From Rathayibacter sp. VKM Ac-2857 (GTDB lineage: Bacteria; Actinomycetota; Actinomycetes; Actinomycetales; Microbacteriaceae), in assembly GCF_013205025.1 (NCBI RefSeq), contig NZ_JABMLE010000001.1:930001-994000 (forward strand): DNA of 64,000 bases, read 5' to 3'. The position numbers and the translations under genes are program-made. This document shows, in pieces, positions 1,898 through 57,419 of this stretch (the first letter of the stretch is position 1; the number at the start of each line of letters is the position of its first letter). The notes beneath the pieces were generated by a model. The model worked only from the letters and a program-made list of their open reading frames with translations. It did no database searches and was not told where the DNA came from.

Positions 1898-1910
1898 CAC
1901 CCGTTCCTCA

Positions 1911-1944
1911 CGAAGGGCCGTCCACCTCGGTGGGCGGCCCTTCG
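1911..1944. terminator. Hairpin terminator after the lipoprotein gene
   Basis: A 15-16 bp stem (CGAAGGGCCGTCCACC with its complement, one G:T wobble) closes on a very short loop 13 bases after the lipoprotein stop. It is followed by TCGTCGTTC rather than a clean T-run. Confidence 0.75.
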
Positions 1945-1958
1945 TCGTTCAGTCGGTC

Positions 1959-53535: not shown

Positions 53536-54804
53536 TCAGCGCACCCGCACCGACAGGCAGGTGACGCAGCCCTCGAGCTTCTCGAACTCCGAGATGTCGA
53601 CGGTGACGACGCGGTAGCCGAGGTCGCGGAGCAGGGCCGCACTCCGGGGCGCCGAGGCCGCCATCAGCAGCGTGTCCGGGGCGAGCACGACCACGTGCGC
53701 GCCGCCCTCCTCCGGCATCGGCAGGAAGGAGGGGAAGAGCCGCGGCTCGTCGACGACGCTCTCCCAGCCGATCACGGTGCCGTCGGGCAGGGCGGTGACG
53801 GCGCTCTTCAGGTGCAGCGCACGGGTGAGCGGGACCGCGACGACCGACAGGCCGAGCGGGCGGAGCAGGGCCCGCAGCTGCGCGACGCCCTCGGCGTTGG
53901 TGCGGCCGCCGCGGCCGACGTAGACCGTGGAGCCGACGCGGAGCACGTCGCCGCCCTCCAGGGTGCCGGGCGCCTCGATCCGGTGCACGACCAGGTCGAG
54001 GGCGCGGGCCGCCTCCTCCGCCCCGTCGACCTCGCCGCGGCGCGACTCGGCGCCCGGGCGGGTGAGGACGGCGTGCCCGTCGACGACGAGCAGCGCGTCC
54101 TCGAGGAAGACCGAGTCGGGCAGCTCGGGCGCCGTCGCGACCTGGACGGTCTCCCAGCCGGCCTCCTCGAGTGCGTCGACGTACTCCTCCCACTGCTGCA
54201 GCGCCTTCACCCGGTCGACGGGGACGCGCTCGAGGTGGGTGAGCTCGCCGGCGTCGAGGTCGTCCGCGGGCTGCCGGATGAGGGCGATGCGGCGCTCCGG
54301 GCGGGCGGTGGCGGCTGTCGTGGCGCGGGCGGCCGCCGAGGCGATGGCGATGCGGTGGCCGAGGGTCGCGGCGGCGGTCACGAAGGCGAGCAGGAAGACG
54401 AGGTTCAGCCCGCCGAAGGTCTGCACGATGGAGAACCAGACCGCGCCGGTGATCGGGTCGCCCGTCGCGCTGGCCTGCACGAGGGTGCCGAAGACGGCGC
54501 CGACGAGTCCTGCGACGAGTCCGGCGATCGCGGCCGTCCACGCGCGGGCGAGCAGCCCGGCCGCGGCGAGCACGAGCACCACCACGAAGGCGAGCACGCT
54601 CGAGAGCAGGAAGTAGGCGTTGACCTGCGGGATCGACGTCGGCGCCAACTGGTTGCCGATGAAGAAGGCGAGGAGGTTGGCGAGGTGGGCCGCGATCGCC
54701 GTGGCCGCCGCGGCGGCGAGCGCCGTCAGCAGGCGCCGCCCCACGGTCGGGGCGTTCGCGGTGGTCGGGGCGGTGGGCGCGCGGAGCGTCGAGTCGGAGG
54801 GCAC
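53536..54804 (-). CDS. Membrane-anchored DDAH/arginine-deiminase-like enzyme
   Basis: A 422-residue two-part protein. Residues about 20-155 form four or so membrane helices. From about residue 168 the rest is a full dimethylarginine dimethylaminohydrolase-type amidinotransferase domain: [34 protein letters not shown], the substrate region [14 protein letters not shown], the catalytic His in [13 protein letters not shown], and the nucleophile Cys416 in GCVTCLSVR. Soluble DDAH proteins are about 260 residues without helices, so this is a fusion. It may hydrolyse methylated arginine or a related guanidino compound at the membrane. An ATG at 54804 is used. A palindrome array lies upstream. Confidence 0.85.
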
Positions 54805-54945
54805 GCGCAGACCTTACGCGCCCGCACCCCTGCCGCCCCTGGCCGGACCCTCGCAGCCGTCTGAGAGCCGGGCCCCCGGCCGCGCCGCGCCCGCTCCCCC
54901 GCCACTCCCCCCGCCACTCCCCCACCACCGCCCGCCACTCCTCAA

Positions 54946-55490
54946 AAGTTGCGGTACTCGCGCGCCACTACCGCAACTTCCCGCGAGTGGAGCACCCGGC
55001 CCGCGCTCGCCGCCCGCCGACTCCGCACAAGTTGCGGTACTCGCGCCCCACTACCGCAACTTCTGAAGAATGGCGGCGCGGCGCCGGGCTCGCTCCACGA
55101 GTACGCAGAAGTCGAGAGCGGAGCGGGCCCACCACACCCGGAGCCCACCGACTCCGCAAATGTTGCGGTAGTCGCGCGCCACTACCGCAACTTTTGGAGA
55201 GCGAAGCGGGCCCACCGCACCCGGAGCCCACCGACTCCTCAGATGTTGCGGTAGTCGCGTGCCACTACCGCAACTTTTGAAGCGTGGCGGCGCGCCGCCG
55301 GGCTCGCTCCACGAGTACGCAGAAGTCGAGAGCGGAGCGGGCCCACCACACCCGGAGCCCACCGACTCCGCAAATGTTGCGGTAGTCGCGCGCCACTACC
55401 GCAACTCTTGGAGAGCGAAGCGGGCCCACCGCACCCGGAGCCCACCGACTCCGCGAATGTTGCGGTAGTCGCGTGCCACTACCGCAACTT
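54946..55490. repeat. Array of six 34-bp palindromes with alternating spacing
   Basis: Copies at 54946-54979, 55029-55062, 55160-55193, 55243-55276, 55374-55407 and 55457-55490. The consensus is GTTGCGGTAGT, CGCGCGCC, ACTACCGCAAC, with 11-bp arms; the first two copies read GTACT on the left arm. Start-to-start distances are exactly 83, 131, 83, 131 and 83. The sequences between are themselves repeated (AGCGGGCCCACC, CCCGGAGCCCACCGACTCC), so the real unit is about 214 bp. No cas or transposase gene is near. It lies in a 1-kb gene-free gap between the DDAH and purH genes. Confidence 0.93.
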
Positions 55491-55526
55491 CTGAGGAGTG
55501 GAGTGAGCAGACCCCGACTCCCGAAA

Positions 55527-55786
55527 GGGAGAGGCCGCGTGCGGGGATCGCGTGCCAAGCGATTCCCGCGGCGGCCGACGCGACCCGCTCTGCGGAACGC
55601 ACCACCCCAGGAGGCCGACCGCGCCACGCCGCGCGAGGAGCGGCGTGGAAGACAGCGCCGGGAGAGGCCGCGTGCGGGGATCGCGTGCCAAGCGATTCCC
55701 GCGGCGGCCGACGCGACCCGCCCTGCGGAACGCACCACCCCGAGAAGCCGACCGCGCCACGCCGCGCAGGGAGCGGCGTGGAAAAG
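55527..55786. repeat. 133-bp tandem duplication downstream of purH
   Basis: Unit 1 (55527-55659) and unit 2 (from 55660) share GGGAGAGGCCGCGTGCGGGG, ATCGCGTGCCAAGCGATTCC and CGCGCCACGCCGCGC, with only scattered differences. Inside each, CGCGTGCCAAGCG and GGCGTGG-type stretches can fold. No supported protein crosses it. Confidence 0.88.
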
Positions 55787-55818
55787 AGCGCCCACTGAGC
55801 GCCTGCGGCGCTCAGTGG
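55787..55818 (-). terminator. purH terminator containing the stop codon
   Basis: On the minus strand CCACTGAGCGCC, loop GCA, GGCGCTCAGTGG form a perfect 12-bp stem followed by GCGCTCTTTTCC. The TGA in the 5' arm is the purH stop codon (55812-55814), so translation runs into the hairpin. Confidence 0.88.
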
Positions 55819-57419
55819 AAGAAGTGCCGCTCCCCCGTCGTGTACATGGTGACGCCGGCGCGCTTCGCGGCCTCGATGACCTCGGGGTCGCGGACCGAGC
55901 CGCCGGGCTGGACGACGGCCTTCACGCCGGCGGTGAGGAGCACCTCCAGGCCGTCGGCGAAGGGGAAGAACGCGTCGGAGGCGGCGACGGAGCCGGGGGC
56001 GCGGTCGCCGGCGCGGGAGACGGCGAGGTGGCAGGAGTCGACGCGGTTGACCTGGCCCATGCCGACGCCGACGGAGGCGCCACCCTTGGCGAGCAGGATC
56101 GCGTTCGACTTGACGGCGCGGCAGGCCTTCCAGGCGAACTCGAGGTCGAGCAGGGTGTCGGCGTCGGCGGGCTCGCCGGCGACCAGCTCCCAGCCGGAGC
56201 TGACCTCGCCGGGGCCGCCGATGAAGCGGTCGGGCTGCTGCAGGAGGATGCCGCCGGAGATCTGCTTGAACTCGGTCTCGACGGGGGCGTAGAAGTCGGG
56301 CAGCTGCAGCAGGCGCAGGTTCTTCTTGGTCTTCAGCACCTCGAGCGCCTCCGGCTCGAAGCCGGGGGCGACGAGGACCTCGGTGAAGATCTCCTTCACC
56401 GTCTCGGCCATCGCGAGGGTGACGGTCCGGTTCGCCGCGATGACGCCGCCGAAGGCCGACACCGGGTCGCACTCGTGGGCGCGGCGGTGCGCGGACGCGA
56501 TCGGGTCGATCGCCTTCGCGCCGGCGATGGCGATGCCGCACGGGTTGGCGTGCTTGATGATCGCGACGGCCGGGAGGACGAAGTCGTACGCCGCGCGGAC
56601 GGCCGCGTCGGCGTCGACGAAGTTGTTGTACGACATCTCCTTGCCGTGCAGCTGGCGCGCCTGGGCGATGCCGGTGCCGTCGGGCGAGACGTAGAGCGCG
56701 GCCTTCTGGTGCGAGTTCTCGCCGTAGCGGAGCACCTGCTGCCGGGTGCCGCGGATCTCGACCGAGCCGGGGAACTCGGACTCGCCGCCCGCCTCCTGCC
56801 CGGCGAACCAGGCGGCGACGGCGGAGTCGTACGAGGCGGTGTGCGCGAAGGCGCGCGCGGCGAGCGTGCGGCGGGCGGCGAGGGTCGTGCCGCCGGTGCC
56901 GAGCGCGGCGACGATGCCGGAGTAGTCGGCCGGGTCGACGACGATCGCCACGTTCGCGTGGTTCTTCGCCGAGGCGCGGACGAGGGCGGGACCGCCGATG
57001 TCGATGTTCTCGACCACGGTCGCCGCGTCGGCGCCGCCGGCGACGGTCTCGCGGAACGGGTAGAGGTTCACCACGACGAGCTCGAACGGCGCGATCTCGA
57101 GCTGCTCGAGCTGCTCGCGGTGCGAGGCGAGGCGGACGTCGGCGAGGATGCCCGCGTGCACGCCGGGGTGCAGGGTCTTCACCCGGCCGTCGAGCGACTC
57201 CGGAAAGCCGGTCACCGCCGAGACGTCGGTCACGGCGTGGCCCGCGTCGCGGATGGTCGCGGCGGTCGAGCCGGTGGAGACCAGCTCGACGCCGGCGCCG
57301 GCCAGCGCTGCGGCGAGCTCGAGCAGCCCGGTCTTGTCGCTGACCGAGATCAGCGCCCGGCGGACGGGGACGACGTCGCGGTCGTCGTAGCTGCTGGGGT
57401 CGTGTGCGGTGATGCTCAT
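55812..57419 (-). CDS. purH: Bifunctional AICAR transformylase/IMP cyclohydrolase
   Basis: Does the last two steps of IMP synthesis, using 10-formyl-THF. The 535 residues have the N-terminal cyclohydrolase domain ([20 protein letters not shown] ... [13 protein letters not shown]) and the transformylase domain ([13 protein letters not shown], the Lys-His pair in [12 protein letters not shown], and [15 protein letters not shown]). ATG at 57419 overlapping the purN stop by 4 bases. Its substrate ZMP is the ligand of the riboswitch at glyA. Confidence 0.97.

Follow-up and report, generated by a model that had tools for sequence, protein, structure and literature searches.

The six regularly spaced palindromes found downstream of purH in Rathayibacter sp. 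VKM Ac-2857 are one cluster of a dispersed family of extragenic palindromes and not a unique locus; what looks like a regular array in a single window (here, the whole stretch of 64,000 nucleotides that was analysed) can turn out to be one local cluster within a family spread across the genome. With modest confidence, we favor reading the array as a local REP/BIME-like cluster that is helically phased, is perhaps engaged by a protein, and arose from an array of two palindrome classes, C1 and C2, by loss of the C2 hairpins.

A first-pass annotation of the window had described six 34-bp palindromes separated by 83, 131, 83, 131, and 83 bp, the product of a tandemly duplicated 214-bp unit. The spacing and the unit were both borne out (Table 1), with one unit at 54937-55150, the next at 55151-55364, and a partial third beginning at 55365 (62% when scored over the full unit). 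The length needed correction, as the core is 30 bp (11-8-11) within a less strict palindrome some 52 bp long. The sequence given for the repeat occurs exactly in four of the six copies, the exceptions being copies 1 and 2, and the agreement of left and right arms said to hold within each copy applies to copies 3-6; it fails for copies 1 and 2 because their left arm reads GTTGCGGTACT and their right arm ACTACCGCAAC, the unmatched base lying in the left arm. The whole array sits between purH and the next minus-strand gene. Between purH and the array there is also a 133-bp repeat in two copies (94%; 55527-55792) with its own hairpins, and similar repeats occur downstream of purH in genome G009.

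Table 1. Features of the palindrome array and its surroundings (positions in the window)
Feature	Position	Strand	Remark
Palindrome 1 (C1), extended	54937..54988		core 54948-54977, one arm mismatch
Palindrome 2 (C1)	55020..55071		core 55031-55060, one arm mismatch
Palindrome 3 (C1)	55151..55202		core 55162-55191
Palindrome 4 (C1)	55234..55285		core 55245-55274
Palindrome 5 (C1)	55365..55416		core 55376-55405
Palindrome 6 (C1)	55448..55499		core 55459-55488
Tandem array of 214-bp unit, about 2.6 copies	54937..55501		86% between units 1 and 2
C2-like outer arms without inner hairpin	55100..55119		33 bp fewer than in G007 and G011; alignment
Second copy of the C2-like remnant, 214 bp further on	55314..55333		repeat analysis and alignment
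purH (AICARFT/IMPCHase)	55812..57419	-	array lies downstream of the purH stop codon
Next gene downstream of the array, weak DDAH-like match	53536..54804	-	PF19420, 25.5 bits, cut-off 23
Terminator-like hairpin (T-rich tail) that overlaps the purH end and precedes the array	55791..55819	-	consensus match only

A genome-wide motif search, which had been suggested as a check, recovered the exact palindrome pattern 27 times in the 4.6-Mb genome, compared with no occurrence of the pattern read backwards, and the pattern is therefore not a chance one. With up to 3 mismatches allowed, class C1 numbers 43 copies spread over four contigs, while a second class, C2 (GTYGTCGTASTCG-N5-CGASTACGACRAC, likewise with up to 3 mismatches), has 15 copies in the same genome. 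Exact C1 was present in 5 of 15 Rathayibacter genomes, the window's own included; among 299 genomes sampled from the bacterial family it was present in 3, all of them Rathayibacter, and among named GTDB genomes, where records close to the window were possibly excluded, it was found in 28 stretches from Rathayibacter VKM Ac-2754 and VKM Ac-2856. C2 was found more widely, in 12 of the 15 Rathayibacter genomes. IMG/VR held no exact match to the palindrome class, and the array was without a match in plasmid and phage records.

Related forms were sought with a covariance model built from 52 hand-picked copies. At E-values up to 0.01, the model matched all 15 Rathayibacter genomes, a count that includes the window's own genome and the sources of the model and that comes from a scan with rough E-values in which at most 150 candidates were scored per genome and both strands were counted. 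Under stricter filters (E up to 0.001), the model matched 6 of the 120 genomes sampled from the bacterial family, and three of these belong to other genera. The alignment of the 52 copies has 83.6% of its cells paired, only somewhat above the 78.8% of shuffled alignments (0 of 500 as high), and pairing falls to 28.7-46.4% when one arm is slid; the outer ends of the palindromes are ACTCC...GGAGT-like. The array had been proposed as a single special locus, such as a partition site or an origin; the occurrence of C1 on four contigs and of related forms in every Rathayibacter genome searched leaves that proposal unsupported.

Within the loci examined, the copies are extragenic and lie mostly just past stop codons. 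Gene positions came from a simple gene caller written for this analysis, and the sample comprised 160 palindromes in loci fetched from G000, G004, G006, G007, G008, G009, and G011; 98 of these palindromes fall in tandem gaps, 45 in convergent gaps, and 12 in divergent gaps, with 4 at an edge or unplaced and 1 inside a gene. Counted by gap (84 in total), 28 are convergent, 47 tandem, and 9 divergent, where gap length would predict convergent and divergent shares of 15.6% and 25.0%, respectively, although orthologous gaps of different species were counted separately, which overstates significance. In tandem gaps holding a single copy, the palindrome is closer to the stop than to the start in 23 of 24 cases. 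One cluster lies just past purH and another just past a purL-like gene (locus L018, 1679-3988), both of them purine genes, which may be coincidence, and a RecQ-like helicase gene (locus L013, 18-2108) lies about 1.2 kb from a cluster of nine palindromes.

Clusters of at least two palindromes numbered 55 in the examined loci, some places having been fetched twice, and fall into 22 locus groups. Neighboring palindromes tend to stand near whole helical turns from one another and hence on the same face of the DNA. Removal of similar spacers reduced the 125 neighboring pairs, drawn from loci some of which were again fetched twice, to 73, of which 68 lay at 60-145 bp; these 68 spacings peak near 71, 82, 93, and 102 bp and give a Rayleigh R of 0.62 at 10.3 bp, a value reached by none of 5000 jittered sets. 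Even without the two main peaks, the remaining 22 spacings give R 0.50 (p 0.0026). In a stricter set, in which loci were merged by flank similarity and only spacings differing by more than 2 bp were kept, 46 spacings within the same 60-145 bp, from 21 of the 22 locus groups, had a period of 10.2-10.4 bp with R 0.62-0.63, which none of 5000 trials reached under either of two nulls. The period is present in each pair type when orthologues are left unmerged (C1-C1, 32; mixed, 55; C2-C2, 6). Off-peak spacings do exist (e.g., 77, 86.5, 90, and 119.5 bp), as do spacings of 40 and 59 bp outside the range used. The spacers between phased neighbors are mostly unrelated in sequence; for the 83-bp C1-C1 spacers (n = 13, 7 groups), mean identity was 0.46, compared with 0.39 when shuffled. 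Some of the common spacings may nevertheless reflect ancient descent missed by the de-duplication.

The spacing bears on the proposal that the array is a multi-site protein-binding locus, which gains some support from the helical phasing and loses some to one of two controls. The distance from palindrome to next start was clean (R 0.06), but the distance from stop to palindrome was itself periodic at 10.4 bp, with R 0.30 (p 0.0002) in the raw data and R 0.39 (p 0.038) across 21 groups after merging, which makes it harder to infer protein bridging from the periodicity.

The purH gap itself differs between species. A scan with the C1/C2 motifs found palindromes there in 8 of 15 species, in varying number and class order, which excludes a chance duplication unique to this isolate; the same scan found none in the other 7, with one weak candidate in G014. 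The G007 gap alternates C2 and C1, and that of G011 mostly does so, with a palindrome every 80-83 bp, whereas G008 carries four C2 and G009 one C1. Aligned with the G007 and G011 arrays, the 131-bp intervals of the window show a 33-bp gap that removes most of a C2 hairpin, so that the window pattern looks like a C1/C2 array without its C2 hairpins; the coordinates of the C2-like remnants were read off the window sequence. Judging from this alignment, the 131 bp is probably not an independent spacing but a C1-C2-C1 interval missing 33 bp, and we infer that the direction was loss of the C2 hairpin in the window rather than gain elsewhere. In two species (loci L061 and L062) whose purH gap gave no C1/C2 palindrome, short gttctcgccctgcgggcgtcgag-like tandem repeats lie downstream of purH, which makes the gap look like a repeat hot spot.

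At some sites common to several species the stem differs, which suggests that copies can change in place. One aligned gene-side position carries C1 in G000, G009, and G011 and C2 in G007, and a second site near this position carries C1 in all four. The most distant Rathayibacter, G010 and G012, have stems that differ from both C1 and C2. In these two genomes, 37 of 40 loci fetched around model matches gave a hairpin bearing AAGTTGC or GCAACTT, a motif that the hairpin filter itself required, and the 42 hairpins obtained lie in 16 convergent, 24 tandem, and 2 divergent gaps. The stem GCAGCCC occurs in 23 of 24 G012 hairpins, while those of G010 are of a GGAGT type (14 of 18) or a GCTCTCG type (4 of 18). 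A comparison of 23 G012 loci with 21 G010 loci (two and one, respectively, fetched twice) yielded four locus pairs with a flank common on at least one side and a palindrome at the shared place. Two of these sites carry each species' majority stem; the other two carry the G010 minority stem, which is little different from that of G012, as plain divergence would give. In two other genera (G018 and G021), the palindrome lies in a convergent gap at all six loci inspected, according to our own gene calls.

Several other explanations may account for part of this picture. It is quite possible, if somewhat short of an even chance, that the palindromes are lineage-specific two-way intrinsic terminators, their identity owed to descent and to the spread of a good terminator. 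Their location immediately after stop codons and between genes that converge would suit this, as would flanks rich in A and in T (GAAAAGTTGC...GCAACTTTTC being one example) and the stable computed folds of two typed hairpins (-36.5 and -37.7 kcal/mol, the first being an idealized copy). Moreover, all 12 short convergent gaps with the family motif, in loci chosen for the family, hold exactly one strong hairpin. Yet 20 of 26 other short convergent gaps lack one, so such a hairpin is not generally needed there, and the T runs at the palindromes are short, mostly two to four with five in one printed copy. A terminator scan called none of the six array palindromes while calling one hairpin at purH, where 1 was found and 0.7 was expected in shuffles. 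The palindromes in divergent gaps also sit poorly with termination, which in addition has no need of six to ten copies clustered at a fixed spacing; terminators are not normally known to recur as one sequence genome-wide or in arrays. On the earlier suggestion that the array is a source of small RNAs, an Rfam search of 54000-56600 returned no match at E up to 1, and a promoter scan of 54700-55900, which covers the sigma-70-like type alone, returned none. Two other hairpins recur separately: a terminator-like frame, ACGAAGGGCC...GGCCCTTCGT (window 1910-1945; L012, 4908-4945; and L077), and GGGCGTATCGAGATCC...GGTCTCGATACGCCC (L019, 1929-1977; L021, 1424-1472 and 3861-3909).

The palindromes had further been suggested as hairpin substrates of an enzyme. 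This fits, but the obvious enzyme family, the Y1/RAYT transposases (PF01797), was not found in any of the 15 Rathayibacter genomes. The same search was positive in 5 of 14 controls; of ten proteins flanking clusters, none matches a transposase family, nine match other Pfam families, and one matches none. The lack of a RAYT match favors a less probable but still credible account, in which the palindromes are inert, old REP-like elements whose mobilizer was lost, their spacing and order being relics of duplication, with template switching inside each hairpin keeping the two arms alike. Passages of PMC3733652 describe loss of the RAYT in REP-bearing species, and the plain tandem duplication in the window, the interval missing most of a hairpin, and the small stem differences at two of the four sites shared by G010 and G012 all agree with such decay. 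What inert repeats explain poorly are the prevalence of one stem type in G012 and of another in G010, the class change at an orthologous site, and a spacing that is kept while the spacers diverge. A very improbable explanation is that the arms are DNA uptake signals set out in inverted pairs, like those of Neisseria or Haemophilus; in other bacteria, uptake signals paired in this way often give rise to terminator hairpins, as stated in PMC2267715, but arms without an exact partner within 35 bases were few here (C1, 14 of 68; G012, 5 of 49; G010, 2 of 26), in loci whose selection for palindromes biases these counts.

If the array is a phased REP/BIME-like cluster, as we favor, its behavior could be pictured as follows: (i) single copies would act as 3'-end hairpins in RNA, perhaps as two-way terminators; (ii) in clusters, a putative sequence-specific DNA-binding protein or enzyme would engage neighboring palindromes on one helix face; (iii) this same-face engagement, or the copying process itself, would explain both the spacing and the in-place stem changes; and (iv) in the window, an alternating C1/C2 array would have lost most of a C2 hairpin before the 214-bp unit duplicated in tandem, giving the 83/131 pattern. 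A bolder proposal, which we consider rather unlikely, is a RAYT-independent REP-like system of the Microbacteriaceae, in which a putative factor would recognize AAGTTGC-framed palindromes, hold neighbors on one face, add or keep copies only at whole-turn distances, and rewrite the inner stems at unchanged sites, so that lineages drift to their own version. RAYT transposases are the usual explanation for REP elements, and a gene-end family with phased clusters and in-place stem changes, in a genus where no RAYT was found, raises the question of what else could copy or rewrite repeats of this kind.

Compared with known systems, the family resembles REP, BIME, and REPIN elements as portrayed in PMC3733652 and PMC3116915, which are short extragenic palindromes dispersed downstream of coding regions and in gaps whose flanking genes converge or point the same way, and which come in pairs and clusters with several classes per genome. 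It departs from the GTAG class of REP/BIME in that no RAYT gene was found in the 15 Rathayibacter genomes and in that no unpaired GTAG foot was seen, GTAG instead lying inside the stem (in C1 and some C2 of the 52-copy alignment). The spacing also differs: in Rathayibacter it changes by increments of about 10 bp for a given class pair, while the SBW25 REPs of PMC3116915 have a single length for each class (71 and 110 bp). CGTC REPs, which PMC3733652 says are without a dedicated transposase, are likewise palindromic repeats, but they are defined by a CGTC tag at one end, and the outer ends here are ACTCC...GGAGT-like. Bidirectional intrinsic terminators, as covered in part of PMC5381666, share the hairpins between convergent genes and near stop codons, and compensatory stem changes are known in terminators from the same source; unlike them, one repeated sequence recurs genome-wide here and forms arrays of six to ten. 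Since the tests for a GTAG foot and for a RAYT both failed, we call the family REP-like instead of classing it with the REPs, and the best reading is a REP/BIME-like family that stands outside the RAYT-REP system as now defined.
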